From Frateuria terrea (lineage in GTDB: Bacteria > Pseudomonadota > Gammaproteobacteria > Xanthomonadales > Rhodanobacteraceae), in the NCBI RefSeq assembly GCF_900115705.1, contig NZ_FOXL01000002.1:310001-374000 (forward strand): DNA of 64,000 nt, written 5' to 3'. Within the stretch, counting starts at the first letter, position 1, and each line of letters opens with the position of its first letter. Shown in pieces: positions 48,819 to 64,000 of the stretch. The translations under genes were made by a program, and so were the position numbers. A model generated the notes under the pieces. The model saw only the letters and a list, made by a program, of their open reading frames with translations. It was not told the DNA's origin and did not search any database.

Positions 48819-49523
48819 ATGTCCCTCACCGGCTGGACCATCCTCTGCGATTTCGACGGCACCATCTCCGTCGAAGACGTGATCGACTCGTTGCTGGACC
48901 GGTACGGCCGCCCGGGCTGGGAACAACTGGAGCACGACTGGCGCGCAGGCCGGATCGGTTCGCGCGCCTGCATGAGCGGCCAGGTGTCGCTGCTGGACCT
49001 GAGCCGGGACGAACTCGACGCCCACCTGGCCGAAGTATGGATAGACCACGCCTTTCCCGCGTTCGTGGCCAAGGCGCGCGGACTGGGCGTTCCCATCCAC
49101 GTGGTGAGCGATGGGCTGGACTATGCGATCCAGCGCATCCTGGGCCGCCATGGGCTCGGTGACCTGCCCGTCTCGGCCAACCACCTGGCCCCCGCCGTCC
49201 CGCCGCAGCGCTGGCTGCTGACCTCGCCGTTCCAGGCGCCCGGCTGCGGCAGCGGCACCTGCAAATGCGCCTGCGCCGAACAGGCACGCGCCGGCGGAAC
49301 CAGGACGCTGCTGATCGGCGACGGCGCCTCCGACTTCTGCGCGGCTGACCGTGTCGACTTCGTCTTCGCCAAGCACCGCCTGATCGAGCACTGCCGTGCC
49401 GCGGGCATTCCCTACGTGCCGATCACCGGCTTCGAGGATGCGCTGGAGCTGCTGCCCGCATTGCTCGACGGCAGCCTGGTCGGCCACCCGACGCTGCCCG
49501 CCCCGCTGGGCTCCCCTGCCTGA
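48819..49523 (+). CDS. HAD-IB family phosphatase, MtnX-like
   Basis: A 234-residue HAD-superfamily phosphatase: nucleophile motif ILCDFDGTIS (Asp11, Asp13), second motif HVVSDGLD (Ser97), and the acidic motif IGDGASDFCAA (Asp168, Asp172). Between motifs II and III is a loop with four Cys (Cys143, 148, 150, 152: PGCGSGTCKCACAEQ), partly shared with MtnX-like enzymes and possibly metal-binding. It hydrolyses a small phosphate ester, unknown here; no methionine-salvage genes are around. First of six plus-strand genes, 17 bases before the aminotransferase. Confidence 0.85.
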   Translation: MSLTGWTILCDFDGTISVEDVIDSLLDRYGRPGWEQLEHDWRAGRIGSRACMSGQVSLLDLSRDELDAHLAEVWIDHAFPAFVAKARGLGVPIHVVSDGLDYAIQRILGRHGLGDLPVSANHLAPAVPPQRWLLTSPFQAPGCGSGTCKCACAEQARAGGTRTLLIGDGASDFCAADRVDFVFAKHRLIEHCRAAGIPYVPITGFEDALELLPALLDGSLVGHPTLPAPLGSPA

Positions 49524-49540
49524 TCCCGGAAAAAACACTC

Positions 49541-50944
49541 ATGACCTTGTTCGACAAGCACGCCTCGGTAGTGATCGACGACGCCCAACTGCTCGCCGAC
49601 GAAGCGCAGTACAGCTCCTTCGGCGACACCGTCCACTACGTCGACCCGCCGAAGATCTTCCGCCGCTGCGAAGGCAGCTGGATGTACGACAGCGCCGACG
49701 TACCGTTCCTGGACCTGCAGATGTGGTACTCGGCGGTCAACTTCGGCTACGGCAACCCGCGCCTGAACGACACGCTCAAGCGCCAGATCGACCTGTTGCC
49801 GCAGGTGGCCAGCCAGTACCTGCACCAGAGCCGCATCGAGCTGGCCAAGACCATTGCGCTGGACGTGCAGGGCAAGTTCGGCACCAAGGGCCGCGTGCAC
49901 TTCAACGTGGGCGGCGCGCAGGCGATCGAGGATTCGCTCAAGCTCGTGCGCAACGCCAGCAACGGCAAGAGCCTGATGTTCGCGTTCGAGGGCGGCTACC
50001 ACGGCCGTACGCTCGGAGCCTCGTCGATCACCTCCAGCTACCGCTACCGCCGCCGCTTCGGCCACTTCGGCGAGCGCGCGATGTTCATCCCGTTCCCCTA
50101 TCCGTTCCGCCGCCCGAAGGGCATGACGCCGGAGGAATATTCGGACGCCTGCGTGCGCCAGTTCGCGCGCTTGTTCGAGACCGAATACAACGGCGTGTGG
50201 GACCCGAAGGTGAACCAGGCCGAGTACGCAGCCTTCTACGTCGAGCCGATCCAGGGCACCGGCGGCTACGTGATCCCGCCGGCGAATTTCTTCCGCGACC
50301 TGAAGAAGGTGCTCGACCAGTACGGCATCCTGCTGGTGGTCGACGAAATCCAGATGGGTTTCTGGCGCACCGGCAAGCTGTGGTCGATCGAGCATTTCGG
50401 GGTGACGCCGGACGTGCTGGTGTTCGGCAAGGCGCTGACCAATGGGCTCAATCCGCTCTCCGGCCTGTGGGCGCGCGAGGAACTGATCAACCCCACCGTG
50501 TTCCCTCCCGGCTCCACGCACTCGACGTTCAACTCCAACCCGCTCGGCACCTCGCTCGGACTGGAAGTGATCCGGATGGGCTACGAGCTCGACTACGAAA
50601 CCAGCGTGCCGGCCAAGGGCGCGCACTTCCTCGAGGGCCTGCGCGATCTGCAGAAGCGCCACAAGGAAATCGGCGACGTCGACGGCCTCGGCCTGGCGCT
50701 GCGCGCGGAGATCTGCACCGAGGACGGCTTCACGCCGAACAAGGCGCTGCTCGACCGGATGGTCGACATCGGCCTGGCCGGCGATCTCGAACACAACGGC
50801 AGGAAGACCGGCCTCGTGCTCGATGTCGGGGGCTGGTACAAGAACGTGATCACGCTCGCGCCCTCGCTGGACATCACGCATGAGGAGATCGACCTGGCGA
50901 TCGCGCTGCTGGACCAGCTGCTGACCCGTGCCAAACGCGGCTGA
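49541..50944 (+). CDS. Class III PLP aminotransferase
   Basis: A 467-residue fold-type I aminotransferase of class III (ornithine/GABA/beta-amino-acid type). PLP Lys297 is in DVLVFGKALTNG; Asp268 (VVDEIQMGFWRTG) contacts the PLP nitrogen; the FEGGYHGRTLGA phosphate/ring loop and STHSTFNSNPLG substrate loop are present. Placed directly before an ACP and ketosynthase, it may aminate an acyl-ACP- or aldehyde-linked substrate, as in some lipid/polyketide pathways; this is inference. RBS is a moderate GGAAAAAAC. Confidence 0.92.
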   Translation: MTLFDKHASVVIDDAQLLADEAQYSSFGDTVHYVDPPKIFRRCEGSWMYDSADVPFLDLQMWYSAVNFGYGNPRLNDTLKRQIDLLPQVASQYLHQSRIELAKTIALDVQGKFGTKGRVHFNVGGAQAIEDSLKLVRNASNGKSLMFAFEGGYHGRTLGASSITSSYRYRRRFGHFGERAMFIPFPYPFRRPKGMTPEEYSDACVRQFARLFETEYNGVWDPKVNQAEYAAFYVEPIQGTGGYVIPPANFFRDLKKVLDQYGILLVVDEIQMGFWRTGKLWSIEHFGVTPDVLVFGKALTNGLNPLSGLWAREELINPTVFPPGSTHSTFNSNPLGTSLGLEVIRMGYELDYETSVPAKGAHFLEGLRDLQKRHKEIGDVDGLGLALRAEICTEDGFTPNKALLDRMVDIGLAGDLEHNGRKTGLVLDVGGWYKNVITLAPSLDITHEEIDLAIALLDQLLTRAKRG

Positions 50945-50965
50945 TCCATTTTAGGAGGACGCACC

Positions 50966-51250
50966 ATGAACGCCTCGCTTTCCGACGAATCCATCCGCGA
51001 CGAGATCTACGCCATCGTCGCCAAGCAGGCCAAGCTCGACGTCGCGTCGCTTCGGCCCGACGCGACCCTCAAGGACCTGGGTGTCGCCTCGCTCGAAGCC
51101 ATCGAGCTGATCTTCGACATCGAGGAGCACTTCGACATCACCTTCCCCGACGAGGGCGCGAACTTCGACACCGATACCGTGCAGCACCTGATCGACGCGG
51201 TGCGCGGCGCGCTGCAGGCGAAGTCCGGTGGTTCGGAGGCGACCGCGTGA
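50966..51250 (+). CDS. Acyl carrier protein
   Basis: A 94-residue ACP with a strong AGGAGG site. Helix I (SIRDEIYAIVAKQAKLD), the loop, and the Ppant motif are followed by helix II-III DIEEHFDITFPDE. The phosphopantetheine Ser42 is in GVASLEAIEL; the usual preceding Asp of DSL is Ala. Not next to fab genes, so it is a dedicated carrier of this pathway rather than housekeeping AcpP. The stop overlaps the start of the ketosynthase gene (GTGA). Confidence 0.9.
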   Translation: MNASLSDESIRDEIYAIVAKQAKLDVASLRPDATLKDLGVASLEAIELIFDIEEHFDITFPDEGANFDTDTVQHLIDAVRGALQAKSGGSEATA

Positions 51251-52473
51251 ATCCTTCGCGGCGGCGTGTCGCGATCACTGGAATGGGCGCGATCAGCCCG
51301 TATGGCGAGGGCGCCGCGCTGTTGTGGAGCGGCCTGCGCGCCGGCCTCAGCGCGATCCGGCCCTTGCGGCACGCTCGTGCCGAGGAAGTCCGCGTGAAGG
51401 TGGCGGCGCAGGTACCGGACAGCTTCGACCCCGCCGCGCGGTTCGACGAACGCATCCTGCCGCAGCTCGACCGGACCTCGCAGTTCGCACTGCTGGCGGC
51501 GCGGGAAGCCGTGGCGCAGTCCGGCCTGGACTTCGCCTCGGCGGGACTGGGCCGGCGCACCGCTGTGGTCATCGGCACCGGTGTCGGTGGCGAGAACACG
51601 CAGAGCGAACAGGCCCGGCGGCTGTACGGCGAAAACGCGACCCGGCTGCATCCGCTGACCATCGTGCGGGTGATGCCCAATGCGCCGGCAAGCCAGATCA
51701 GCATCGCCCTGGGCGCGCATGGCCCGACCTTCGGCATCGTCAGCGCCTGCGCCTCCTCGAACCACGCGATTGCACAGGCGGCCATGCTGATCCGTGCAGG
51801 CATGGCCGACGTGGCGATCGCCGGCGGTACCGAAGCATGCATCACCTACGGCGCGCTGCGCGCCTGGGAAGCGATGCGGGTCCTGGCCGACGACACCTGC
51901 CGCCCGTTCAGCGTCAACCGGCGGGGACTGGTGCTGGGCGAAGGAGCCGGCGTATTCGTGCTCGAAGCCATGGACCATGCCTACGCCCGTGGCGCGACGC
52001 CGCTGGCCGAACTGGCCGGCTTAGGCATGACCGCCGACGCCGGCGACATCGTCGCGCCCGATCCGGCCGGCGGTGCCGCGGCGATGGCACAGGCGCTGGC
52101 CGACGCCGGCCTGGTCCCCGAGGAGATCGACTACATCAACGCCCATGGCACCGGCACGCCGGCCAACGATCCGACCGAGACGATGGCCATCCACCGGGTT
52201 TTCGGACCGCACGCACGGCGCCTGGCAGTCTCCTCGACCAAGTCGATGCACGGCCATGCGCTGGGCGCCTCGGGCGCGCTGGAGCTGGTCGCGGTGCTGG
52301 GCGCGCTCGCCGAAGGCGTGGTGCCGCCGACCGCCAACCTGGACCAGCCCGACCCGGCCTGCGACCTCGACTACGTGCCCAACACCGCGCGCGACATGCC
52401 GGTGCGCGCCGCGCTCAGCAACTCGTTCGCCTTCGGCGGGCTCAACGCGGTGCTGGCGCTCAAGCGCGCATGA
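51247..52473 (+). CDS. Beta-ketoacyl-ACP synthase (FabF/KAS II-like)
   Basis: A 408-residue thiolase-fold condensing enzyme starting at GTG 51247. The full Cys-His-His triad is present: Cys168 (IVSACASSNHAIA), His300 (INAHGTGTPANDPTE) and His337 (STKSMHGHALGASG), so decarboxylative condensation with malonyl-ACP is expected. It most resembles FabF-type and dedicated KS enzymes in specialised-metabolite clusters. With the ACP gene it forms the chain-extension core. The start overlaps the ACP stop. Confidence 0.93.
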   Translation: MNPSRRRVAITGMGAISPYGEGAALLWSGLRAGLSAIRPLRHARAEEVRVKVAAQVPDSFDPAARFDERILPQLDRTSQFALLAAREAVAQSGLDFASAGLGRRTAVVIGTGVGGENTQSEQARRLYGENATRLHPLTIVRVMPNAPASQISIALGAHGPTFGIVSACASSNHAIAQAAMLIRAGMADVAIAGGTEACITYGALRAWEAMRVLADDTCRPFSVNRRGLVLGEGAGVFVLEAMDHAYARGATPLAELAGLGMTADAGDIVAPDPAGGAAAMAQALADAGLVPEEIDYINAHGTGTPANDPTETMAIHRVFGPHARRLAVSSTKSMHGHALGASGALELVAVLGALAEGVVPPTANLDQPDPACDLDYVPNTARDMPVRAALSNSFAFGGLNAVLALKRA

Positions 52474-52483
52474 GGCAGCCATC

Positions 52484-53548
52484 ATGGCGTACTCCACCGC
52501 GCTTGAACCGGCCGCACTGGTCGAGCAGTTCCTGGCGCATCCGCCGATAGGATTCACGGCCGAGTCCTCGCCCTCGGGCATACCGACCTTTTTGGCGCGC
52601 TTCGACCTGCTGACCACGGCCGACGACGCGCTGCGCAAGCGCATCACCGGACTGCCGCTGTATCCCCTGTGGGGAAGGCTGTTGCGCTGGCGCACGCGTT
52701 TCGCCGGCTGCACCGTGACCGAGTACACGCCGCTGCCGACCGGCACGGCCGAGGGGCTGGCGGACGAACTGCTCGCCGCCTATGGCCGCGAGTGCGCTTT
52801 GCTCATCGTCAAGGACCTGCCGCAGGATTCGCCGCTGCTCGACGCGTCGGCCAACAGGCAGGCCGACGCGTTAGCGGCCGCGCTCGCGGCACGCGGGTTC
52901 CTACTGCTCGAGGGCATGCCACTGGCCTGGGTGCCGGTGGACTTCCATTCGACCGACGACTATCTCGCACGGCTGTCGGCGGCCCGCCGCAAGGACATCC
53001 GGCGCAAGCTGCGCGCGCGCGAACGGCTGCAGATCGACGCCGTGCCGACCGGCGCGCCCTGCTTCGCCCAGGCCGACGTCATCGGCGAGTACTACGCCCT
53101 GTACCGCAACGTGCATGCGCAGAGCGAGATCCAGTTCGACCTGCTCGACGAGGCGTTCGTCGCTGCATTGCTCAACGACGGGCACAGCGCAGGCATCGTC
53201 TTCACCTACCGCAGCGGCGGGCGGCTGATCGGCTGGAACCTCTGCTACGAATACGCCGGCAAGCTGGTCGACAAGTACGTCGGCTTCGTCTATCCCCAGG
53301 CGCGCGAGCACAACCTGTATGCGGTCAGCTGGATGCACAACCTGGACTACGCCTGCGCGCGCGGCCTGAGCCACTACGTCGCCGGCTGGACCGACGCACG
53401 GGCCAAGGCCCATCTGGGCGCGCAACTGAGCCGCACGCGGCATGCGGTCTACCTGCGCAACCCGCTGCTGCGCGCGCTGCTGCGCCGCCTGGCGCATCGT
53501 TTCGAGGGCGAGCCGGTGGCCACCGCCCAGGCCGGAGCAGGCCCGTGA
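52484..53548 (+). CDS. GNAT/FemAB-like acyltransferase (DUF482 type)
   Basis: A 354-residue protein resembling COG3146 (peptidoglycan-like GNAT; BioF2/FemAB fold): residues about 140-290 show PLAWVPVDFHSTDDYLARLSAARRKDIRRKLR, the IGEYYALYRNVHAQSEIQFDLLDEAFVAALLND pattern and the IGWNLCYEYAGKLVDKYVGFVYPQAREHNLY core. These enzymes transfer acyl or aminoacyl groups; the substrate here could be ACP-bound acyl chain, but this is inference. It starts 10 bases after the ketosynthase and its stop overlaps the start of the ureohydrolase (GTGA). Confidence 0.78.
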   Translation: MAYSTALEPAALVEQFLAHPPIGFTAESSPSGIPTFLARFDLLTTADDALRKRITGLPLYPLWGRLLRWRTRFAGCTVTEYTPLPTGTAEGLADELLAAYGRECALLIVKDLPQDSPLLDASANRQADALAAALAARGFLLLEGMPLAWVPVDFHSTDDYLARLSAARRKDIRRKLRARERLQIDAVPTGAPCFAQADVIGEYYALYRNVHAQSEIQFDLLDEAFVAALLNDGHSAGIVFTYRSGGRLIGWNLCYEYAGKLVDKYVGFVYPQAREHNLYAVSWMHNLDYACARGLSHYVAGWTDARAKAHLGAQLSRTRHAVYLRNPLLRALLRRLAHRFEGEPVATAQAGAGP

Positions 53549-54438
53549 CCCGGCCGATCGTGCTCGACATCGACCAATCGGTGGGGCCGCTGACGGGACG
53601 GCTGGTGGTGCCACTGGCGCACTGGCAGGAGGCGCTGCGCTTCGGGTGCTCGCTGCGGACGCTGGGACGGTTCGACCGCGTGCTGGACGACCTGCTGCCC
53701 GACCCCCACGCCACCGCGATGCTGGGCAGCGGCGATTTCCACCATCTGAGCCTGCCCCTGATCGCACGCGCGGGCGACGCCAAGCCGTTCCAGGTGGTCG
53801 TACTGGACAACCATCCGGACAACATGCGCTATCCGTTCGGCGTGCATTGCGGCTCGTGGGTGCGACGGGTCGCGCAGTTGCCGCAGGTCAGCCACGTACA
53901 CGTGGTGGGCATCGGCTCGGACGACATCGGCCGTGCCCATGCATGGGAGAACTACCGCGCGCCGCTGCGCAGCGGCCGGCTGAGCTACTGGAGCGTCGGC
54001 GTCGATGTCCGCTGGGCCCGCGACGCCGGCCTGGCCCATGCATTCCATGGGTTCGATACCCCGGCCGATCTCGTGGATGCCTTCCGCGAGCAGCAGCTGG
54101 CCCGGCCGCTGCCCACCTATCTGTCCATCGACAAGGACGTCTTCGCGCCGGACGTGGCGCGCACCAACTGGGACCAGGGCCAGCTGCGGCTCGAACACGC
54201 CCTCGCCCTCATCGACAGCCTGCGCGGCGGACTGGTGGGCAGCGACATCACCGGCGAGGTCTCGCTCTACCGCTACCGCAGCTGGTGGAAGCGCCAGTTG
54301 TCCGCGATGGACGCCCAGCCGGTCGTGGACGAGCGCGAGCTGGGGCAGTGGCAGGCGCAGCAGCATGCGCTCAACGAGCGCTTGCTGGCGGCGATCGGGA
54401 AACGCGTCGAAGCAGGCAGCCTGGGCGCGATCAGTTAG
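53545..54438 (+). CDS. Arginase/ureohydrolase-fold metalloenzyme, divergent
   Basis: A 297-residue protein from GTG 53545. It has all metal ligands of the arginase/agmatinase fold: His66/67 in GSGDFHHL (usual GGDHS), Asp88-x-His90-x-Asp92 in LDNHPDN, Asp196-x-Asp198 in SIDKDVF, and Glu238 in SDITGEVS. The remaining sequence is distant from known agmatinases, formiminoglutamases and arginases. It should hydrolyse a guanidine, amidine or amide on a pathway intermediate; substrate unknown. Its stop codon overlaps that of the convergent PepSY gene. Confidence 0.78.
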   Translation: MTRPIVLDIDQSVGPLTGRLVVPLAHWQEALRFGCSLRTLGRFDRVLDDLLPDPHATAMLGSGDFHHLSLPLIARAGDAKPFQVVVLDNHPDNMRYPFGVHCGSWVRRVAQLPQVSHVHVVGIGSDDIGRAHAWENYRAPLRSGRLSYWSVGVDVRWARDAGLAHAFHGFDTPADLVDAFREQQLARPLPTYLSIDKDVFAPDVARTNWDQGQLRLEHALALIDSLRGGLVGSDITGEVSLYRYRSWWKRQLSAMDAQPVVDERELGQWQAQQHALNERLLAAIGKRVEAGSLGAIS

Positions 54439-54728
54439 TCCTTGTCGTTGTCGATCGAGTTCTCCAGCACCTGTCCGTCCATCGCGTCCACGCCCACCTC
54501 GTGGGTGACGCCCCTGGCCATGATGTCGAAGGAATAGCGCAGGCCGCTGCCGCCCTTTTCCTTTTCCAGCTCTTCCTTGGTGATCTTGCCCGGGAAAGTC
54601 TTCAGGGCGATGGTGCGCGCCTCGGTCATGCTGACATGCGGCTTCATGCCGGACCTGGTGGGTGCGGCGGCGGCGAAGGCGGCGGTGCCGAAGGCTAGCG
54701 AGGAAGCGAAAAGAATCCACTGGCGCAT
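54435..54728 (-). CDS. Secreted PepSY-domain protein
   Basis: A 97-residue protein with a signal peptide (FASSLAFGTAAFA-A, cut about residue 18) and one PepSY domain: SMTEARTIALKTFPGKITKEELEKEKGGSGLRYSFDIMARGVTHEVGVDAMDGQVLENS. Small periplasmic PepSY proteins are known to inhibit peptidases or modulate sensor kinases. Here it is the last gene of the operon headed by a two-component system. CAGGAGA site before ATG 54728. Confidence 0.88.
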   Translation of the reverse strand: MRQWILFASSLAFGTAAFAAAAPTRSGMKPHVSMTEARTIALKTFPGKITKEELEKEKGGSGLRYSFDIMARGVTHEVGVDAMDGQVLENSIDNDKD

Positions 54729-54790
54729 GACAGTCTCCTGTTGGGTTGCCGATAGGACGTTCGCGGCGCCTACAAGGTGACCTCTATCGA

Positions 54791-56044
54791 TTAGATGGCG
54801 CTTACCTGCGTCTCGCCGCGGCGTGAAGGCAGCGCCCCAAGCACGCGCCCGATGACCGTGGCGACCTCTTCGAACGTGGCGTCGTCCAGCCAAGGGCTGT
54901 TGCTGAGCGTGAGCGTGCGCTGCGCGAAGTCGCGCGCGTTGGGCATCGGCTCCCGCGGCACCCGGTCAGCGAGGTAGGCGTAGTCGGGCAAGGCATGGAC
55001 GAACAACCGGCTCACGCCCACGCCCGCCGTCCACAACCGGGCCAGCACGGCATTGCGGAGTGCCTCGTCGGGCAAGCGCAGCAGCAGAAACGGCCAACTG
55101 CCCTCGGCATCGGCACCCGGCCGGATCACCTCGAGGCCGTCGATCTGCTGCAGGCGGGCCACACGCGGGCTGGCTTGCGCGCGGCGCTCGGCGAGGAAGG
55201 CCGGCCAGCGCGCGGCCGCATGCGTGCCCACGCCCTGGCGCCAACGGCCTACGCGGTGCAGCGGGATGCCGGCAGCAAAGCGGTCGCCCACGGCCGCGAC
55301 CGGATCGCCCTGCCGCAGCTTCCGCCGCAGCGGCCGGCCATAGGCGAGGGCCAGTCCTTCGGGCCGATATAGCGCAGCCAGTCCCAGCAGTTCCACGCAG
55401 CGGCGCAGTTCCCACCCGCCGCCGCGCGAGGCCAGCATGTCGTGCACGCGCTGCAGCGCCGCGCGCAACGACGGGTCGCGCGCGGTCAGCAGGCCGCCCT
55501 CGTAGATGGAAAGCCCCTTGCCCGCGGCGAGGCTGAAGAAGCCGATGTCGCCGCGCAGCCCCACGCTCCAACCGCGATCTCGCGCGCCCAATGCCTGGGC
55601 CGCATCCTCGACGACCCACGCCCCGGCCTGTCGCGCGATGGCACGAGCCATGTCGACGTCCGCGACCAGGCCGGCCAGGTGCGTCGGGACGACCGCCAGC
55701 GTGTCCGCGCCACAGACCCGTGCCAGCGCCGCCGGATCCATGTCGAAGTGACCGGGACGGGTGTCGCACAGCCGCAGGTGCAGGCCCAGGCTGTGCACCG
55801 CGATGGCGACCAGCGGGCAGGTGTAGGCCGGCACCACAACGACGCGGCGGTGCGGCGCGCGTTCGCTCAGCGTGCGCAGCGCCACCAGCAGCGCGGCGGT
55901 GCCGGAACAGGTCAGCAGCAGCGGCGGCGTACCGAGTTGCTCCGCCAGGGTCTCGGGCAGTGCGCCGCGGCGCGGCAACAGGTCAGCGGCCCGCAGCGGC
56001 AGGCCGGCCGTGGGCGGAATCTCGCGGAAGGCGCGGCGGCGCAT
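54791..56044 (-). CDS. DegT/DnrJ/EryC1/StrS-family aminotransferase, divergent
   Basis: A 417-residue PLP enzyme with the DegT pattern: TCSGTAALLVALRTL, PAYTCPLVAIAV, HLAGLVADVD, VVEDAAQALGAR (Asp147) and PLP Lys176 in FFSLAAGKGLSIYEGGLL. Family members aminate keto-sugars (ArnB, PseC), though this one is distant and its substrate need not be a sugar. It follows two small SMR genes, an order reminiscent of ArnB with ArnE/ArnF, but no other arn genes are present. It lies 5 bases after the second SMR gene. Confidence 0.85.
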   Translation of the reverse strand: MRRRAFREIPPTAGLPLRAADLLPRRGALPETLAEQLGTPPLLLTCSGTAALLVALRTLSERAPHRRVVVVPAYTCPLVAIAVHSLGLHLRLCDTRPGHFDMDPAALARVCGADTLAVVPTHLAGLVADVDMARAIARQAGAWVVEDAAQALGARDRGWSVGLRGDIGFFSLAAGKGLSIYEGGLLTARDPSLRAALQRVHDMLASRGGGWELRRCVELLGLAALYRPEGLALAYGRPLRRKLRQGDPVAAVGDRFAAGIPLHRVGRWRQGVGTHAAARWPAFLAERRAQASPRVARLQQIDGLEVIRPGADAEGSWPFLLLRLPDEALRNAVLARLWTAGVGVSRLFVHALPDYAYLADRVPREPMPNARDFAQRTLTLSNSPWLDDATFEEVATVIGRVLGALPSRRGETQVSAI

Positions 56045-56049
56045 GGGGC

Positions 56050-56448
56050 TCAGCCTGCGATGTCGGGCACCGCCTCGGGCGCGTCCCGCTCGGCCGCGCC
56101 CAGGCAGACGATGCCGGCCACGATCGCCACCGCCCCGAGCACGCGCGGCGTGGTCAGCGGCTCGTGCAGCAACCAGACCGACAGCAGCATCACGCTGACC
56201 ACTTCCAGGTGCGAGGCGGCGAAGGCGGGCCCGATCGGCGCGTGCTTGAGCAGGCTCATCCAGGTGAAGAACGCGCCCAGGTAACCCACCAGCGCGCCAT
56301 AGATCCAGGGCTGTCCGAATACACGCAGCAGCCAGCCAAGGTTCGCTGCGACCGGCAGCGCGTGGCTGCCTGCCAGCTTGAAGGAGAGCTGCGCGAGCGT
56401 GTCGAAGCTCATCAGCAGCAGGAAGCCGAACAGGTAGAACCGCCTCAT
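56050..56448 (-). CDS. Small EamA/SMR-type transporter, subunit 2
   Basis: A 132-residue protein with four hydrophobic segments (LFGFLLLMSFDTLAQLSFKLAG, GALVGYLGAFFTWMSLLKHA, AFAASHLEVVSVMLLSVWLL, VLGAVAIVAGIVCLGAAE). This is a half-size EamA/drug-metabolite unit like ArnE/ArnF or SMR pumps, which work as pairs. ATG 56448 overlaps the stop of the first SMR gene (ATGA). The pair probably flips or exports the pathway's product or a lipid-linked amine. Confidence 0.82.
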   Translation of the reverse strand: MRRFYLFGFLLLMSFDTLAQLSFKLAGSHALPVAANLGWLLRVFGQPWIYGALVGYLGAFFTWMSLLKHAPIGPAFAASHLEVVSVMLLSVWLLHEPLTTPRVLGAVAIVAGIVCLGAAERDAPEAVPDIAG

Positions 56449-56804
56449 CCGCCCGCTCCCACGATGGCCACGCCCAGGCTCACCAGGCCGATGCCGAGCA
56501 CGCGCAGGCGGGTGAGCTTTTCGCCGAACAGCAGCCGCCCCGCCAGCATGATCGCCACGATGTTGATGGAGCCCAGCAGCACGCCCTCGGACAAGGGCAC
56601 CAGGGAGAGGAAGGCGATCCACACCAGGAACTCGACCACGTAGCAACCGATGCCGAGCCACAGCCATGGCCGCGCGGCCATGTGGCGCCAGCGCGCCAGG
56701 CCGTCACCGGCATGCGGGTCGCCGGCGGCGGCCTTGAAGGCGAGCTGGCCGACGCTGTCGAACGTCACGTTGGCAATCCACAGGGTGAGCGTCAGCGGCG
56801 CCAT
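56445..56804 (-). CDS. Small EamA/SMR-type transporter, subunit 1
   Basis: A 119-residue protein with four hydrophobic segments (LTLWIANVTFDSVGQLAFKAA, WLWLGIGCYVVEFLVWIAFLSL, GVLLGSINIVAIMLAGRLLFGE, LRVLGIGLVSLGVAIVGAG). Its conserved Glu in VVEFLVW and the GEKLTRLRVLGIGLV motif match ArnE/ArnF-like members. The two SMR genes together correspond to the heterodimeric flippases that move undecaprenyl-phosphate-linked aminoarabinose in E. coli. Substrate here unknown. It starts 5 bases after the alpha/beta hydrolase. Confidence 0.82.
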   Translation of the reverse strand: MAPLTLTLWIANVTFDSVGQLAFKAAAGDPHAGDGLARWRHMAARPWLWLGIGCYVVEFLVWIAFLSLVPLSEGVLLGSINIVAIMLAGRLLFGEKLTRLRVLGIGLVSLGVAIVGAGG

Positions 56805-56809
56805 CGCCG

Positions 56810-57646
56810 TCAGTCCACCGACACCGGGGCCGTGCGCCCGGCGGCGATCCCGTCGAAGAAACGCGCCGAATGCTCGATCAGCGTGCGCCGCTGCTTGTCG
56901 ATCGTGATCATGTGGTAGCTGTCTTCCAGCAGCAGCAGCTCGGCCGGCGCGCTTACCCGACGCATCACCAGCTCGGCGTTGCGCACGCTGGCCACGTCGT
57001 CGTCGCTGGCGTGCGCCACCAGGCAGGGCGAGACGACCTCCGGCAGCTGGCGGCGCACCTGCATCGACAGCAAATGCAGGTCGGCCAGCGAGTGCCAGGG
57101 ATTGCCGAGCAGCCCGGCAATGGTGCTGTCGCCGCTGCGCATCGCCGCGCTGACCTGTTCGCGCAGGCGTTCGTCGCGCAATCCATACGGCGGCTGTTCG
57201 AGGAAGGCGCGCGCGCGCCCGAGGCCGAGCCGCTTGGCCAGCGGCAACAGGAAGGACAGGCGCGCCGACCAGGGAATGCTCCAGCCGTCATAGCGGAAGG
57301 TGGCGCCGTAGACACCCACGCCGGCGACCTGGTGCGGTCGGTCGGCGGCAAGCTTCAAGGCCAGCAGCGCGCCCATCGACAGGCCGCCGACGAACAGCTG
57401 GTCGACCTTCGCGAGCAGCGCATCGGCGGCCTGCTCCACGCTCGCGTACCAGTCACGCCAGCCGGTAGCCAGCAGGTCGTCGGTGTCGCCGCAGTGGCCG
57501 GCCAGTTGCATGCCGTGCACGGTGAAGCCGGCGTTGTTGAGGCCCTTGCCGAGCAGCCGCATTTCCATCGGCGTGCCGGTCAGGCCATGGATCAGCAGGA
57601 CGCCGCGGCGGTCGCCTTCGAGAAAGAAATCGGCCTGGCGGATCAC
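56810..57646 (-). CDS. Alpha/beta-hydrolase (carboxylesterase/lipase-like)
   Basis: A 278-residue alpha/beta hydrolase from GTG 57646 with GAGGTA upstream. The fold shows VLLIHGLTGTPMEMRLLG (oxyanion loop), the nucleophile elbow VGGLSMGALLAL (Ser about 107), the acid in HASDDDVAS and His in LEDSYHMITID. This is the carboxylesterase type (Est30-like). It may release the acyl product from ACP or trim an ester. In the export operon between adaptor and SMR genes; substrate unknown. Confidence 0.85.
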   Translation of the reverse strand: MIRQADFFLEGDRRGVLLIHGLTGTPMEMRLLGKGLNNAGFTVHGMQLAGHCGDTDDLLATGWRDWYASVEQAADALLAKVDQLFVGGLSMGALLALKLAADRPHQVAGVGVYGATFRYDGWSIPWSARLSFLLPLAKRLGLGRARAFLEQPPYGLRDERLREQVSAAMRSGDSTIAGLLGNPWHSLADLHLLSMQVRRQLPEVVSPCLVAHASDDDVASVRNAELVMRRVSAPAELLLLEDSYHMITIDKQRRTLIEHSARFFDGIAAGRTAPVSVD

Positions 57647-57692
57647 GCGGCTACCTCGGGATGGACGACACACAGCCTCGCATGAGCCCGTT

Positions 57693-58616
57693 TCATCGGC
57701 CTTTCGCGGCCGGACCGGAGCCCGCTCCGAATCGCACCATGACGCGCTGGCCCACGCGCGGCGTCTGCGCGGTATCGAAGGCGAGCACGCACTCGACCGT
57801 GCGGCTGTTGGCGCGCAGCTGCGGATCGTCCTCCAGCGTGGACGGCCCGACCACCGTGCCCACCCGCAGCACGTGCGCATGCCAGGGCCTGGCGTCGGGC
57901 GAGGCATCGGCGCTGACCAGCGCCGGCATGCCCGGCCGCACCGCATCGACGTAGGCTTCGCTCAGGTCCGCACGCACGATCCGCGGCGTGCGCGGCAGCA
58001 GCACGAACAACGCGCCGGCCTGTGGCGAGACGCTGGCGCCGGGCTGGGCGGACACGCGCACCACGTCGGCGTCGATCGGCGCGCGCAGCGTGCGCTGCGC
58101 CAGCTCGAAGCGGGCGCCTGCGAGCTTCTGCTCGGCCGCCGCCACGCCCGCGCGCATGGCGGTCTGCTGCGCGGTCAGTTCGGTCGCCGCGTTGTGCGCT
58201 TCGTCGGCGCCTGGACCGTCGCCGGCACCGGCCCGCTCGGCCTCGGCCAGCCGTTGGGCGCGGGTTTTCGCGGCCGCCAGCCTGTCGCCGAGCAGCGTCA
58301 GCTGCGCCCGCGCCTGGTCCAGTTCGGCCTGCGCCGCGGCGACGGCGAGCCGGCCCGGCTCGAGGTCCAGCGACGCCAGCGGTTGGCCGCGGCGCACCCG
58401 CTCGCCTTCGTGCACGTCGACCTCGGCCAGGGTGCCCTCGCGCGGCATGCCCAAGCTGAGCAGGCCGCCTTCGACGTCGATGCGCCCGCGCGCGACCGCC
58501 GCATAGGCCGGCGCCGGCGCGGTGGTCGGCGGGTCGTCCTGCTGGGCGCAGGCGCACAGCAGCAACGGCGCCAGCAGCGCGAGCGCCGTTGCACGCCGGA
58601 GGATGGGCGAAATCAT
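57693..58616 (-). CDS. HlyD-family periplasmic adaptor lipoprotein
   Basis: A 307-residue membrane-fusion protein: lipobox ALLAPLLLCAC (Cys near 22), then the lipoyl half-motifs REGTLAEVDVHEGERVRRGQPLASLD and LRAPIDADVVRVSAQPGASVSPQAG, around a coiled-coil hairpin (about 90-160). It bridges the inner-membrane ABC pump and the outer-membrane factor. ATG 58616 overlaps the ATPase stop (ATGA). Confidence 0.9.
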   Translation of the reverse strand: MISPILRRATALALLAPLLLCACAQQDDPPTTAPAPAYAAVARGRIDVEGGLLSLGMPREGTLAEVDVHEGERVRRGQPLASLDLEPGRLAVAAAQAELDQARAQLTLLGDRLAAAKTRAQRLAEAERAGAGDGPGADEAHNAATELTAQQTAMRAGVAAAEQKLAGARFELAQRTLRAPIDADVVRVSAQPGASVSPQAGALFVLLPRTPRIVRADLSEAYVDAVRPGMPALVSADASPDARPWHAHVLRVGTVVGPSTLEDDPQLRANSRTVECVLAFDTAQTPRVGQRVMVRFGAGSGPAAKGR

Positions 58617-59353
58617 GAAGCGGTCCCTTCGATGGCGGCGATCGGCGCGGGCATGCGCCGGTCGCTCAGGATACGGCCGTCCTCCATCGCCAGCACGCGG
58701 TCGGCGTGGCCGATCAGGCGCGGGTCGTGGCTGACGCAAAGCACGGTCGTGCCGTGCACCCGCGCGATACGGTGCAGGATGTCGATGATGACCTGTCCAC
58801 TGGCGGCGTCGAGCGCGCTGGTGGGTTCGTCGGCGAACAGCAGTTGCGGTTGCTTGGACAGCGCGCGGGCGATTGCGACGCGCTGCTTCTCGCCGCCGGA
58901 CAGTTCCGCCGGTTTGAGCGTCATGCGGTGGGCCAGGCCCACTTCCTCCAGCGAACGCGCGGCGCGCTCGCGAGCCTCGCGCTTGGTCACGCCCAGGTAA
59001 TGCAGCGGCAGTTCCACCTGCTCGCGCGCGCTCAGTGCGGGAAAGAGATTGAAGCCCTGGAACACGAAGCCGGTGTGCAGCAGCCGGAAACGCTCCAGCG
59101 CGTTGGCATCGAGCTGGTCCAGGGCGGTGTCGAGCGCGAATACGCGTCCGGTGTCGACCTTCTGCAACCCGCTGAGGATCGCCAGCAGCGTGCTCTTGCC
59201 GCAACCGGACGGCCCGGAGATCAGGGTCAGCTCGCCGGCATGGATGGACAGCGACAGGTTGTCCAGGACCTGCGTGCGCACGCGGCCGGAGACGAACGCC
59301 TTGGCGACGCCTTCGGCGCGCAGGGTGACCGCACCGCCCGCCACGGCACTCAT
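58613..59353 (-). CDS. ABC transporter ATP-binding protein (MacB/LolD/DevA type)
   Basis: A 246-residue ATPase with Walker A GPSGCGKSTLL (about 48), Q-loop, signature LSGGEKQRVAIARAL (about 150), Walker B LLFADEPTSALD and H-loop VSHDPRL. Closest to the LolD/MacB/DevA subclass, which pairs with FtsX-type permeases and drives export through tripartite machines instead of ordinary import. The start at 59353 overlaps the permease stop (ATGA). Confidence 0.92.
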   Translation of the reverse strand: MSAVAGGAVTLRAEGVAKAFVSGRVRTQVLDNLSLSIHAGELTLISGPSGCGKSTLLAILSGLQKVDTGRVFALDTALDQLDANALERFRLLHTGFVFQGFNLFPALSAREQVELPLHYLGVTKREARERAARSLEEVGLAHRMTLKPAELSGGEKQRVAIARALSKQPQLLFADEPTSALDAASGQVIIDILHRIARVHGTTVLCVSHDPRLIGHADRVLAMEDGRILSDRRMPAPIAAIEGTAS

Positions 59354-60483
59354 CGCAGCAGGCTCGCCGGATCGGCGTGGCGCAGGCTGCGGATCGCCGC
59401 CAGGCCGGACACCGCGGCCAGGCCCATCGCGAGCACCACGCAGGCCAGCGTGGCCGGGGCGTTCAGCACCACCGGCACGTCCTGGCCATGGGCCACCCCG
59501 AGCAGCGCACCGCCGAGCAGGGTGGCGCCGAGCAAGCCCAGCGCGCCGACCCAGAAGGCCTGCTCCAGCACCACCCACCGCAACGCGCCGACACCCACGC
59601 CGAGCGCGTTGAGCATGGCGTACTCGCGCACCGAGCCGGCCACCGCGGCGACCAGGGTCTGGCTGGTGATCACCGCGCCGACCAGGAACACGACGCCGGC
59701 CAGGAACAGCACGCCGGCACCCGCGCCGGTGTCGAGCATCCAGTAGAGCGCGGAACGGCGCGCGAACGCGTGGGCGGTCCACACTTCGTAGGGGCCGAAC
59801 GAGCGATCGCCGTCGAGGCGCCGGGCCACCGCGTCGGCCTGCGCCGGGTCGCGCAAGCGGGCGACCAGGTAGGTGGGCTGCCCACTGTCGCCCGGATCGG
59901 TATCGAGTTGCCTGGCGGTGGCGAGCGAGCTGACCACGTTGACCCCGCCGAGTGCGCGCAGGCCGCTGCTGACGCCGACCACCCGCACGGTATGCCCGTT
60001 GATGGCGGCGGTACCGCCGACGGCGACGCCGAGCTTGTCGATGTCGGCGCGGTCCACGATCACCGCATCCGGCTCTTCGAGGCGTGCGCGCAGGGCCGGC
60101 GGCAGTGCGTGGGCGAACATCAGCCCATCGGCGTGCGGGTCGATGCCGGAAACGAATACCGATACACCGCCGGTATCGGCATGGCCGCGCCAATCGGCGT
60201 CCAGCCAGATGAAAGGTTCGACCTGGGAGACCGCCGGATCCATCAGCAGGCGGTCCTCGATGTTCGGATCGATCGGCCGGCCGAGATTCACGCTCTGGGT
60301 GCCCGGGAATCCGATCCACAGGTCCGCGGCCGAGCCGGTGATGTAGACGCTGGCGCTGCCGAAGATGCCCAGCACCAGGGCCGCCTGCAGCAGCTGCAGC
60401 AACCCGGCGAAGCCGACCGCGAGGATGGCAGGCAGGAAGCGCCGCCATTCGTGCACCAGCGTCTTGCGGGCCAGGGCGACCAT
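59350..60483 (-). CDS. ABC transporter permease (FtsX/MacB/DevC type)
   Basis: A 377-residue protein with one N-terminal helix (about 17-40), a large periplasmic domain, and three C-terminal helices (about 255-280, 305-330, 345-365) ending in the FtsX-like VSGLAAIRSLRHADPASLLR. The N-terminal VALARKTLVHEWRRFLPAILAVGFAGLL matches DevC-like members. Together with the ATPase, adaptor and outer-membrane factor it makes a type I-like efflux pump. The ATG overlaps the stop of the OMF by one base (TGATG). Confidence 0.9.
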   Translation of the reverse strand: MVALARKTLVHEWRRFLPAILAVGFAGLLQLLQAALVLGIFGSASVYITGSAADLWIGFPGTQSVNLGRPIDPNIEDRLLMDPAVSQVEPFIWLDADWRGHADTGGVSVFVSGIDPHADGLMFAHALPPALRARLEEPDAVIVDRADIDKLGVAVGGTAAINGHTVRVVGVSSGLRALGGVNVVSSLATARQLDTDPGDSGQPTYLVARLRDPAQADAVARRLDGDRSFGPYEVWTAHAFARRSALYWMLDTGAGAGVLFLAGVVFLVGAVITSQTLVAAVAGSVREYAMLNALGVGVGALRWVVLEQAFWVGALGLLGATLLGGALLGVAHGQDVPVVLNAPATLACVVLAMGLAAVSGLAAIRSLRHADPASLLR

Positions 60484-61940
60484 CAGTCGTGACCCTCGGC
60501 CAGCGTGGCCTGCTCACCTGCGGGCAGCGGCGCGCCGCCCACGGCCTTGAACAGCGCCACGAACGCCAGGCCGTGGCTGGCGCGTGCCTGGACCAGCGAC
60601 AGTGCCGCCTGGTCGCGTGCAATGGCGCTCTCCGCCCGGTCCATCGGGCCGGCCAGCTTCAAAGCGGCGCGCCGCGCGACGATCCCGTCGGCATGCTCCA
60701 GGGCTGCTGCGGCCTCGCTGCAATGGCGCTCGTACTCGGCCTGCCGCTGCAATCTCCCGATCGCCGTCTCGACCTCGCCAACGCCCTGCAGCACCGCCTG
60801 CCGGTACGCCAGCACGCTTGCCTTGAGCTCATGTTGCTTCGCATGCGCCTGTGCCGCCCGCATGCCCCAGTCGAACAGCGGGATATCGATCACGGGACCG
60901 AGCGACAGCACCGCGTTGTCGTTCGTGGGCCGGTGCGCCTGCAGGCTGGTCGACCGGATCAGCGAGCCGCCGAGGGCCACGCGCGGATAACGGTCCGCGC
61001 GCGCCACGCCGGCCTCGCCCGCGGCGCGCAGCACATCGGCTTGCGCGTGCAGGATTTCCGGACGCGAGCGCAACATGTCCGCCGGTGCGGCCTGCAGCCG
61101 CCAGGCGCCGAGCGAGGGCATCGGGGCAGCCTTGAACCAGGCGGGGTCGGGCTCGGCCCGGCCGAGCAGGACTGCCAGTCTCTGCGCGTTGGCGTCCACC
61201 GCATCGCGCGGTTCGGCCAGGGCCGCGTCCGCCTGGGCGAGCGCGGCCTTCGCCCGGTCGAGCTCCTGCGCACCCGCCAGGCGCAGCTGCTGGCGGATCT
61301 GGAGCGAGGCGTATTGCTGCCGACGCGTGTCGCGGATCCGCTGCAGCCAGCGCTCCTGTTGTTGGGCGGCGCGCAGTTCGAGCCAGTCGCGGGTGACTTC
61401 GGCCACCAGCGACACCTGCGCGCCCCGCAGGCCGGATGCCGCGGCGTCGAGATCGCCCTGAGCCATGCGCCGCTCGGCGGTACCGCGGCCGAAGAGATTC
61501 AATTCCCACTGCGCGTCGAGACCCACCACGAAGAACGAAGCGCTCGCATCAGGGTCGGGCAGGTCTTCCGTCTTCGCGCTCAGCTGGGGCAGGAATGGCG
61601 CACCGACGACGCGGTGCAGGGCGCGCGCGGCGCGCAGGTGCTCCACGGCCTGCGCGACGTCCAGGTTGCGCGCCAGCGCCTGGTCGATCAGCGCATCCAG
61701 CTGCGCATCGCCGAAGGCATGCCACCAGCCGTGCAGGTCGGTGGGTGCGGAAGCTGCATCGCCACTGGCATGGCGCCAATGACCGGGCGCGGCTGGACGT
61801 AGTTCGGGCAGGGGCGTGGCGGCACAGCCGGCCAATGCGATGCACAGGACGGGGGGCGCGAGCCCTTGCATGCGTCGACGCCAGGCGGGCGCGACCATCG
61901 GGCGCCGGAGGGCAAGCATGCAGTGACGTCGAAAAAACAT
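60483..61940 (-). CDS. Outer-membrane efflux factor (NodT/OprM type)
   Basis: A 485-residue OMF lipoprotein: lipobox VLCIALAGCAATP (Cys near 39 if read from 61940), WWHAFGDAQLDALIDQALARNLDVAQA, then two repeats of barrel/alpha-hairpin (about 60-250 and 260-480) with YPRVALGGSL. The NodT family forms the outer channel of RND or ABC tripartite pumps. A later start (MQGLAPPVL, 61871) would give a more normal signal peptide. Last seven bases before it carry the sensor kinase stop. Confidence 0.9.
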   Translation of the reverse strand: MFFRRHCMLALRRPMVAPAWRRRMQGLAPPVLCIALAGCAATPLPELRPAAPGHWRHASGDAASAPTDLHGWWHAFGDAQLDALIDQALARNLDVAQAVEHLRAARALHRVVGAPFLPQLSAKTEDLPDPDASASFFVVGLDAQWELNLFGRGTAERRMAQGDLDAAASGLRGAQVSLVAEVTRDWLELRAAQQQERWLQRIRDTRRQQYASLQIRQQLRLAGAQELDRAKAALAQADAALAEPRDAVDANAQRLAVLLGRAEPDPAWFKAAPMPSLGAWRLQAAPADMLRSRPEILHAQADVLRAAGEAGVARADRYPRVALGGSLIRSTSLQAHRPTNDNAVLSLGPVIDIPLFDWGMRAAQAHAKQHELKASVLAYRQAVLQGVGEVETAIGRLQRQAEYERHCSEAAAALEHADGIVARRAALKLAGPMDRAESAIARDQAALSLVQARASHGLAFVALFKAVGGAPLPAGEQATLAEGHD

Positions 61941-61947
61941 GGCGATC

Positions 61948-63354
61948 TCAGGCGGCGGCTGGCGGAGGAAATTGCACTTCCACGCTTAGGCCGTGCTGTG
62001 CGGTCCGCAGGTAGCGGATGGTAGCCCGATGCCGCTCGGCGATGTGCTGCACGATCGCCAGGCCCAGCCCGGTGCCCTCCTCGTTGGTGCCCGGTACGCG
62101 AAAGAACCGCTCGCCCAGCCTGGACAACAGCGCGTCGGGCACGCCCGGGCCGTCGTCCTCGACGCGCAGGCGTACGCCGCCGCCGGGCGATGCCACGAGG
62201 CTCACGGTGACGCTGCTGCCGGGCCCGGCATAGCGCAGTGCATTGTCGAGGAGGTTGTCCAGCATCTCGTGCAGGCTGGCGGCATCGCCGTTGACCGGCA
62301 GCGGGCCGGGCGGCCCGTGGTAACCAAGGTCGATCCGGGCCGCCAGGGCCTCGGGTACCCGCAGGCTCACTGCCTCCGGCACCAGGCGGGCAAGATCCAC
62401 CGGCACGTGGGTTGCAGGCTCGGCCAGCGGCGACTGCGCCCGCGTCAGTGCCAGCAGCTGCGCCGAGGTGCGCGCCGCGCGCAGGGTCAGGCGGCGCATG
62501 TGACCCAGCGCGTCCCGCAAGGTCTGCGGGCTGTCGTCCGCGAGGGCGCGTTCCACGTGCAGGCTCAGGCCGGCCAGTGGCGTGCGCAGCTGATGGGCAG
62601 CGTCGGCAATGAAGCGTTCCTGCAGTGCCAGGGTATCCCTCAGCCGCATGAACAACGCATCGATGGTGCGCGTCAGCGGCAGGATTTCCTGCGGTACGTC
62701 CTCTTCGCCGATCGGCGTGATCTCCCGTCCGCGTGCGGCCAGGCGGGCGGTAAGCGGCTGCAGCACGCGAAGCCCGTAGTCCACGCCGAACCAGACCAGC
62801 GAGAGCACGCCCAGGATCAGCAGCGTCTGCAGCGGCACGGCCATCAGCAGGATTTCGCGGGCGCGCCGATGCCGGTCGGCCAGGGTTTCCGCCTTGGTTA
62901 CCGTCAGCGTGTCGCGAGGGTCGAAGTCGGGACGGATGCTCACGGCCGCCACGCGCAGCTTGTGCGAACCCAGCGTGGCGTCGTAGAGCACGGGCGGCTG
63001 GTCGACCGGCGGCGGGGCGATCTGGCGGAACTGCGCGTTGTCGGCCAGCACCCCGTGCAGCCGGCTGCGCACGCTGAAATAGCTGCCCTCGTCCGGGTCG
63101 TACGCGAGCAGGAAGCGCGCCTGCGGCGAGACGGTGTCTTCGAGCCGGTCGCCGCGCAGCATCTGCGCCAGCGTGAGCGCGTCGTCGCCCAGGTCGCGGT
63201 CGTGCACGTGGTTGGAATAGGCCAGCGCCACGCCGTAGGTGAGCAGGGCATCCAGCAGCAGCAGCACTCCGACCGGGATCAGCAGGAACGCCAGCAGGCG
63301 CCGCCGCAGGCTCGGTTGCGCCGACCGGCGCGCGGCCGCCGCGACTTCAACCAC
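61948..63354 (-). CDS. Sensor histidine kinase (QseC/PmrB-like)
   Basis: A 468-residue kinase with an N-terminal helix (about 20-40), a periplasmic domain (about 45-165), a second helix (about 168-188), HAMP-like linker, H-box FIADAAHQLRTPLAGLSLHVERAL (His about 254), N-box NLLDNALRYA, G1 VEDDGPGVP and G2 GTGLGLAIV. The N-terminal sensor type with short periplasmic loop is common in QseC/PmrB-type kinases. It overlaps the response regulator by 8 bases. Confidence 0.93.
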   Translation of the reverse strand: MVEVAAAARRSAQPSLRRRLLAFLLIPVGVLLLLDALLTYGVALAYSNHVHDRDLGDDALTLAQMLRGDRLEDTVSPQARFLLAYDPDEGSYFSVRSRLHGVLADNAQFRQIAPPPVDQPPVLYDATLGSHKLRVAAVSIRPDFDPRDTLTVTKAETLADRHRRAREILLMAVPLQTLLILGVLSLVWFGVDYGLRVLQPLTARLAARGREITPIGEEDVPQEILPLTRTIDALFMRLRDTLALQERFIADAAHQLRTPLAGLSLHVERALADDSPQTLRDALGHMRRLTLRAARTSAQLLALTRAQSPLAEPATHVPVDLARLVPEAVSLRVPEALAARIDLGYHGPPGPLPVNGDAASLHEMLDNLLDNALRYAGPGSSVTVSLVASPGGGVRLRVEDDGPGVPDALLSRLGERFFRVPGTNEEGTGLGLAIVQHIAERHRATIRYLRTAQHGLSVEVQFPPPAAA

Positions 63355-64000
63355 CGGCCTCGCCCTCTTCGAGCATGTAGCCCAGCCCGCGGATCGTGCG
63401 TACGCCGGTACCGCAACCGTGCAGCTTGCGGCGCAGGCGGTGGACCGCGATGTCCAGGCCGTTGTCGGTGAGCTCCTGGTCCCAGTTGCACAGCGACTCG
63501 ACCAGTTGCGCGCGGCTGGTCAGCCGTCCCACCCGCGATGCCAGTGCCGCGAGCACGCCGAACTCGCGCGCGGTCAGGTCGAGCGCGGTTTCGTCGATCC
63601 AGGCGCGCTGCCCGGGCAGGTCCACCCGCAGACGCCCCAGCTTCAGCTCCGGCGTCCCCTTGCTGGCGACCCGCCGCAGCAACGCGCGCACCCGGGCGTT
63701 GAATTCGTCCAGCGCGAACGGCTTGACCAGGTAGTCGTCCGCTCCCAGGTCGAGGATCCGCACGCGTTCACGCAGGCCCTCGCGTGCGGTGATCACCAGC
63801 ACGGGAATTTCGGCGCCGCGTCGGCGCAACCGATGCAGCACGTCACTGCCGTCTAGCTTGGGCAGCCCCAGGTCGAGCACCAGCAGATCGTAGGGCGAAT
63901 GCTCGTCCAGCATGGCATCGGCCCGCGCACCGTCATCCACCAGGTCGACCGCGTGCCCGCCATGGCGCAGCGCCGCCGCCACGCCGGCGGCGATCGCCCT
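63347..64000 (-). CDS. OmpR/PhoB-family response regulator, cut by the window edge
   Basis: 217 residues are inside the window; the gene continues past base 64000, where the frame reads RAIAAG before the VAAALRHGG segment. The receiver has the phospho-acceptor Asp in LLVLDLGLPKLDG and Lys in YLVKPFALDEF. The C-terminal OmpR winged helix runs through LTAREFGVLAALASRVGRLTSRAQLVESL and DNGLDIAVHRLRRKL. First gene known of the minus-strand operon that ends with the PepSY gene; it probably controls that operon and maybe the convergent biosynthetic one. Confidence 0.92.
   Translation of the reverse strand, partial: RAIAAGVAAALRHGGHAVDLVDDGARADAMLDEHSPYDLLVLDLGLPKLDGSDVLHRLRRRGAEIPVLVITAREGLRERVRILDLGADDYLVKPFALDEFNARVRALLRRVASKGTPELKLGRLRVDLPGQRAWIDETALDLTAREFGVLAALASRVGRLTSRAQLVESLCNWDQELTDNGLDIAVHRLRRKLHGCGTGVRTIRGLGYMLEEGEAGG

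Follow-up and report, generated by a model that had tools for sequence, protein, structure and literature searches.

We examined a 64,000-nucleotide stretch of the Frateuria terrea genome (3.84 Mb; contig NZ_FOXL01000002.1, positions 310,001 to 374,000; hereafter, the window), which carries from position 48819 onward a set of biosynthetic, export, and two-component genes that we refer to as the island. Six close-packed genes on the plus strand face a convergent run of eleven on the minus strand, and the catalytic residues are intact throughout. The plus-strand genes encode, in order, an MtnX-like HAD-IB phosphatase (48819..49523; PF12710, TIGR01489 above cut-off, PDB 2fea), a class III pyridoxal phosphate (PLP) enzyme of the aminotransferase fold (AT3; 49541..50944; PF00202), a dedicated acyl carrier protein (ACP; 50966..51250; PF00550), a FabF-like ketosynthase (KS; 51247..52473; assigned by family matches and catalytic residues), a FemAB-like double-GNAT acyl or aminoacyl transferase (52484..53548; PF04339 and PF13480, with a structural model and fold matches), and an arginase-fold metallohydrolase (53542..54438; PF00491, fold, and metal ligands). 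The last of these meets, tail to tail and with a short overlap, the gene for a small PepSY protein (54435..54728; PF03413), which is the first gene on the minus strand. It is followed there by genes for a DegT/DnrJ/EryC1/StrS-type PLP enzyme (54791..56044; PF01041), two ArnE/F-like SMR/EamA proteins (SMR2, 56050..56448; SMR1, 56445..56804), a lipase/esterase-like alpha/beta hydrolase (56810..57646; PF12146, on a longer frame), a HlyD/DevB-type adaptor (57693..58616), an ABC ATPase of the DevA/LolD type (58613..59353), an FtsX-type permease nearest DevC (59350..60483), an outer-membrane factor of the NodT/TolC type (60483..61940), a QseC/PmrB-type sensor histidine kinase (61948..63354), and a PmrA/TctD/QseB-type response regulator (63347..64000) that runs beyond the window end (L006:348-1085); the SMR, transport, and signaling proteins were assigned by family matches. 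A candidate response-regulator box, a CTTTC-type direct repeat with an 11-bp period, lies on the minus strand at 48753..48769, ∼50 bases 5' of the HAD gene and oriented opposite to it. A degenerate second box with the same geometry and 2 mismatches precedes the hydrolase gene on the plus strand (57690..57706), with stronger copies in relatives.

Coordinates and family matches thus bear out the convergent arrangement and the overlaps reported in the first-pass annotation. That annotation also took the minus-strand genes for one operon. All eleven genes are in place, the last one extending past the window, but a single unit is less sure, since the degenerate box in the gap between the HlyD and hydrolase genes suggests that the minus strand may hold two transcription units.

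We mapped the window proteins onto the neighborhoods of relatives using identity limits set for each family. The tally, with the arginase fold as the query, covered those 56 of the 80 returned loci that were named and had complete 10-kb flanks. Gene order and strand are reshuffled among relatives, yet the families remain together, and all 16 tallied families were found in 17 of the 56 loci. The FemAB-like protein accompanied the query in every locus (56 for each), followed by SMR1, SMR2, and the hydrolase (46 each), DegT (45), KS and ACP (44 each), AT3 (42), HAD (39), FtsX and the outer-membrane factor (33 each), HlyD and the ATPase (32 each), the kinase (21), and the regulator (18). The PepSY gene was rare (4 of 95 relatives' loci).

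Presence and absence are correlated as well. Among 147 relatives, the arginase fold and FemAB were both found in 65, with the arginase fold alone in 1, FemAB alone in 6, and neither in 75; for the arginase fold and AT3, the corresponding counts were 53, 13, 9, and 72, with AT3 scored at a limit of 1e-150, which divergent or broken copies may escape. Fisher P values for both pairs are tiny, as computed without correction for relatedness, and 62 of the arginase matches fall in a single family (f1, Rhodanobacteraceae). Within the window's genus, three genomes carry the arginase fold, FemAB, and AT3 together and three carry none of them. Across a 398-genome sample of the phylum, AT3 was present in all 15 genomes with a strong arginase match and alone in ten more, in a table that omits 3 weak matches of the 18 for arginase (E values, 1.9e-4 to 8.3e-4). 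The hydrolase and kinase were scored in 28 genomes picked by arginase status: the hydrolase was found in 20/20 arginase-positive versus 0/8 arginase-negative genomes, and the kinase (E value of 1e-100 or better) in 12/16 island genomes of the family versus 1/8 island-free ones. Because the families co-locate despite changes of order and strand, and because their presence and absence are correlated, the gene set is a real conserved unit, as the first-pass annotation had anticipated. It occurs in Rhodanobacter, Dyella, Luteibacter, Frateuria, some Xanthomonas, and Delftia, with related forms in Rhizobium, Agrobacterium, and Bartonella. Contigs of Herminiimonas, Xylophilus, and Pigmentiphaga, like those of Delftia, carry full or partial sets, AT3 or arginase matches extend to Agrobacterium, Sinorhizobium, and others, and full or partial sets are plasmid borne in Xanthomonas sacchari, Rhizobium, Roseomonas, and Bartonella.

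In Dyella-type genomes (e.g., G007) and in the genus g17, the island is split between two sites, which defines two modules. Module A comprises the two-component system, AT3, HAD, the outer-membrane factor, FtsX, the ATPase, and HlyD, the last three with the channel forming a DevBCA-type exporter; the two-component genes do not adjoin it in every split-genome stretch. Module B comprises the hydrolase, SMR1, SMR2, ACP, KS, and usually FemAB, the arginase fold, and DegT. In five g17 genomes, module B is reduced to hydrolase-SMR1-SMR2-ACP-KS: the arginase gene is absent from all five, FemAB is absent except for a weak match in G067, and no DegT was seen in the fetched g17 stretches. Genes for NAGPA and a penicillin amidase (weak PvdQ-like score) lie 3' of g17 module B in the two loci scanned (L298:2605-5876; L299:14094-17350); the gap of ∼570 bases in L299 leaves them as candidate members only. 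Elsewhere the modules intermix, as AT3-FemAB-arginase in Delftia and KS-HAD-AT3-hydrolase in family f57. The plus- and minus-strand halves that were initially treated as working units were not found to occur independently; the natural modules, which are partly independent in being apart in the Dyella-type and g17 genomes, cut across the strands. We therefore rejected a division by strand into two functional halves in favor of modules A and B. Of the ten phylum-sample genomes with AT3 alone, nine neighborhoods were read, and eight had HAD and the hydrolase adjoining AT3, four of these with KS also. The deepest core is thus HAD, the class III enzyme, and the hydrolase, with KS recurrent.

The two modules share a candidate regulatory element. 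A de novo search for hexamer repeats with a 10- to 12-bp period upstream of island genes picked out GAAAGG/CCTTTC, repeated every 11 bp, in 63 of the 75 regions before HAD, whereas the best pattern in one shuffle reached 3; related repeats appeared before the hydrolase and at the ACP/FemAB promoter. We then fixed the box as CTTTCS-N5-CTTTCS with at most one mismatch and counted it within 150 or 180 bases before each tblastn start, counting identical upstream sequences once and dropping matches that started past residue 30. Of 71 distinct HAD upstream regions, 56 contain it in the orientation opposite to the gene (shuffled expectation, 0.1), at a median distance of 47 bases (middle half, 46 to 49). 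Across these 56 boxes the spacer varies but no repeat base does, an invariance that stems in part from the fixed search pattern. The 15 HAD regions without a box comprise 13 from outside the Xanthomonadales plus L070 and L156. Before the hydrolase, the box is found in 37 of 86 regions, namely, 23 of the 25 that lack a directly upstream island gene (judged over 1,500 bases of fetched sequence) and 14 in which HlyD lies upstream; many loci are closely related, about ten Dyella-type loci sharing a single hydrolase box. The window's own hydrolase has no box at one mismatch, only the degenerate copy. Upstream regions of AT3 (0/77), KS (0/76), the arginase fold (0/119), and DegT (0/82) have none, and other matches are 2 forward at HAD, 8 of 79 reverse at ACP, and 3 of 114 forward at FemAB. 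Single matches at the response regulator and outer-membrane factor are slicing artifacts (∼15 kb away), and those two rows were disregarded.

Where the modules are apart, in Dyella-type genomes and g17, the box is retained before both, and in each of the five g17 genomes it occurs both at HAD and at the separate hydrolase operon. Two of three exact matches in the window's own genome are at the island (the third is L218), and of 22 exact matches in 15 relatives, 11 are at HAD and one more is at a detached hydrolase. As a genome-wide finder of further regulon members, the box was rejected, because total counts were not above a reversed-pattern control; its specificity rests on position and conservation. 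Two further boxed loci (L271 and L276) group together and have no island biosynthetic gene in their neighborhoods. At five boxed loci, the nearby regulator is just a distant one (30 to 34%), and in g10, the genus of two of these loci, the orthologous kinase is located elsewhere (four genomes). Just past the window end, a PAP2-family phosphatase gene (L006:1350-1964) has a box ∼45 bases before it (L006:1289-1305) and is probably another target of the same regulator. An 11-bp-period direct repeat before target genes near regulator genes is the arrangement of OmpR-family regulons, and the box is therefore a predicted site for an OmpR-family-type regulator, to which the island's own regulator may bind. 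This element, newly described here, would tie modules A and B to each other and to the two-component genes, in keeping with the sensor-controlled system that had been proposed for the locus.

The shared box also bears on whether two unrelated modules simply adjoin by chance in this genome. The separate sites in Dyella-type genomes and g17 fit such an account, as do the 13 of 66 arginase-positive relatives without a close AT3 and the 9 of 62 AT3-positive relatives without arginase. It is made very improbable by the presence of the same box before both modules even when they are apart, by their correlated presence, and by their intermixing in Delftia and family f57.

The class III enzyme belongs to a distinct subfamily. 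Its identity is 73 to 97% across the main lineages with intact copies and 55 to 70% in some AT3-only genomes, and its scores against the 25 NCBIfam models shown fall far short of their cut-offs. Lys297, Asp268, and Arg156 are retained. In class III transaminases such as GabT and OAT, a Glu and Arg gate pair handles glutamate/2-oxoglutarate. This gate is lacking from AT3 in comparison with four PDB chains: position 240 is Glu in two and Asp in two of the nearest chains (QG(E/D) motif), and position 438 is Arg in all three that reach it, before the C-terminal PPL motif, whereas AT3 has Thr240 and Thr438 in 78/78 sequences (E value of 1e-60 or better; at least 420 residues). With Thr at both gate positions, AT3 is unlikely to be a glutamate-dependent transaminase.

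Active-site residues are conserved across the other enzymes as well. The HAD motif residues are kept in 98/98 sequences, the DegT Lys in 87/87, and the hydrolase Ser and His in 98/101 and 101/101, respectively. The KS retains Cys/His/Lys/His in 87/87 sequences, which agrees with the full catalytic triad read from the window at first pass. The ACP phosphopantetheine serine is kept in 82/82, preceded by A in 57/82 and D in 5/82, so that the motif is mostly ASL and not DSL. The arginase-fold model (predicted local distance difference test [pLDDT], 90.9) matches amidinohydrolases and agmatinase (E value, 2.1e-7; template modeling [TM] score, 0.54), PF00491 is above cut-off, and metal ligands H67, D89, H91, D93, D197, and D199 are kept in the 20/20 aligned sequences. 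Judged by modeled fold and binuclear metal ligands, the protein is a member of the ureohydrolase superfamily. It has in common with arginase, agmatinase, and proclavaminate amidinohydrolase the Pfam family, fold, and six metal-ligand positions, but differs in its own invariant motifs (GSGD-HH, DNHPD, DKD, and NW-QG) and matches no NCBIfam family at E values up to 0.01. The FemAB-like model (pLDDT, 92.2) has as its nearest folds streptothricin aminoacyl-tRNA-dependent synthases, FemX, and a domain of MprF, and its profile matched no PDB sequence up to an E value of 1. With MprF/LpiA aminoacyl-phosphatidylglycerol synthases and FemX it has the fold in common, but at a TM score of ∼0.5, 10 to 14% identity, and without the membrane part of MprF.

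The transport and signaling genes point to named systems while scoring below their cut-offs. The ATPase matches DevA at 225.5 bits (cut-off, 295.8), the permease matches DevC at 77.2 (290.35), and the adaptor matches DevB at 57.8 (129), ranked after general RND adaptors. DevBCA-TolC is the heterocyst glycolipid exporter, and a lipid exporter of this type combines DevA, DevC, and DevB counterparts, each encoded separately, with a TolC-type channel. These families are among the nearest to the island's proteins, at scores under the cut-offs, and the island has no glycolipid synthase-type gene. The SMR proteins are nearest ArnE/ArnF, the regulator is nearest PmrA, and the kinase is nearest QseC and then PmrB, all below cut-off, with the phospho-His kept in 39/39 kinases and the phospho-Asp in 41/41 regulators. 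An HWE-type histidine kinase gene lies directly upstream of the island (window positions 46932-48017, minus strand) and shows no sign of membership.

The island thus recalls the PmrAB-regulated Arn pathway, which places 4-amino-4-deoxy-L-arabinose on lipid A, in its PmrA-nearest regulator, its ArnE/ArnF-nearest SMR pair, and a DegT enzyme in the ArnB superfamily. It differs in that all of its matches are below the curated cut-offs and in that, by Pfam, no ArnA, ArnC, ArnD, or ArnT type gene is found among the island proteins, which instead include KS, ACP, AT3, the arginase fold, and the DevBCA-type exporter. A PmrA-type TTAA box was rejected as the regulatory site, since neither the window nor any tested upstream region contains one. 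Bacterial ceramide/sphingolipid synthesis is alike in its GNAT-type N-acyltransferase and ACP, but the island proteins include no serine palmitoyltransferase-like alpha-oxoamine-synthase Pfam domain; nor do they include the ligase, ketoreductase, or dehydratase genes of aryl polyene clusters. Full-text searches of the openly licensed PubMed Central library, which leaves out subscription papers and preprints, listed no paper recognizably on this gene set by its title and abstract beginning. The original impression that the combination matches no nameable pathway therefore stands. The ten proteins submitted to PADLOC matched no family, and anti-phage defense was rejected.

We consider it somewhat probable that the island encodes one pathway, controlled by the two-component system, for the synthesis and outward transport of an acyl compound that bears an amine and is most likely a lipid of the envelope. 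KS and ACP would supply a dedicated acyl chain, and a phosphorylated precursor would be turned into the amine/hydroxy part by the class III enzyme together with its partner, the HAD phosphatase. Acyl or aminoacyl transfer by the FemAB-like enzyme could yield an amide, a C-N bond could be hydrolyzed by the arginase-fold enzyme, and the lipase-like hydrolase may cut or transfer an ester or thioester; in some lineages, DegT would contribute one more amine. Flipping across the inner membrane would fall to the ArnE/F-like SMR pair, and onward carriage of the product to the DevBCA-type exporter and outer-membrane channel. The PmrAB/QseBC-type system would control both modules through the CTTTCS-N5-CTTTCS boxes. 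The proximity of the FemAB model to MprF, a lipid-modifying enzyme, counts toward a lipid, and the reading tilts further to an envelope lipid because of lipid-type neighbors, namely, genes for a fatty acid desaturase and a cyclopropane-fatty-acyl synthase within the Rhizobium set (L077:15202-19767) and an adjoining MBOAT gene in Bartonella (L075:14040-15422). Other genes adjoining the set encode MipA/OmpV in an f17 genome (L176:12403-13578) and Rhizobium (L077:19708-20532) and DUF2147 in an f61 genome (L180:6152-7213).

The main rival, which we regard as unlikely though worth weighing, is that the exporter secretes a diffusible specialized metabolite (an N-acyl amine, whether a signal or antibiotic-like) and that the product is not a membrane lipid. 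An ACP, a KS, and a pair of PLP enzymes alongside a full tripartite exporter would suit such a product, as would the streptothricin synthases nearest the FemAB model, the plasmid location in several genera, and the penicillin-amidase gene by the g17 operon. An ArnE/F-type SMR pair and a lipase-like hydrolase as a universal member argue for a lipid instead, as do the lipid-modifying genes adjoining the Rhizobium and Bartonella sets, and near-ubiquity in the Rhodanobacteraceae is more typical of a house function. The hydrolytic character of the HAD, arginase-fold, and alpha/beta hydrolase enzymes, together with a two-component system of the envelope-stress type, would also fit a catabolic, salvage, or detoxification system in which an acyl amine or lipid head group is degraded and the pump removes the remainder. 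This we consider improbable, given that the dedicated ACP and KS, whose catalytic residues are complete, and the flippase-like SMR pair point to synthesis.

Several observations weigh against a single box-controlled lipid pathway. Outside the Xanthomonadales, none of the 13 regions read upstream of HAD has the box. Genome-wide counts do not rise above the control, with 62 matches at one mismatch versus 60 for the reversed-pattern control in the window's own genome and 22 versus 27 in relatives, a further count being alike. The class III neighbor in Roseomonas is just 27% identical and so belongs to another subfamily. KS, ACP, DegT, FemAB, and the arginase fold are each missing from some lineages, so the product may differ among them, and the island proteins include no glycosyltransferase, ligase, or reductase.

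The envelope-lipid pathway nevertheless remains our preferred reading, and more tentatively, it could represent a new class of bacterial aminolipid, built by a gate-less class III enzyme and phosphatase, FemAB-fold N-acylation or aminoacylation, and ureohydrolase-fold trimming, followed by SMR flipping and DevBCA-type export, in a PmrAB-like regulon of its own and with relatives in several classes of proteobacteria. The island would thus be a regulated biosynthesis-and-export pathway that is widely shared and seems uncharacterized. The set offers new subfamilies of three enzyme folds. Its marker genes, those for the hydrolase and the class III enzyme, give a direct experimental handle on it, as does the conserved box.

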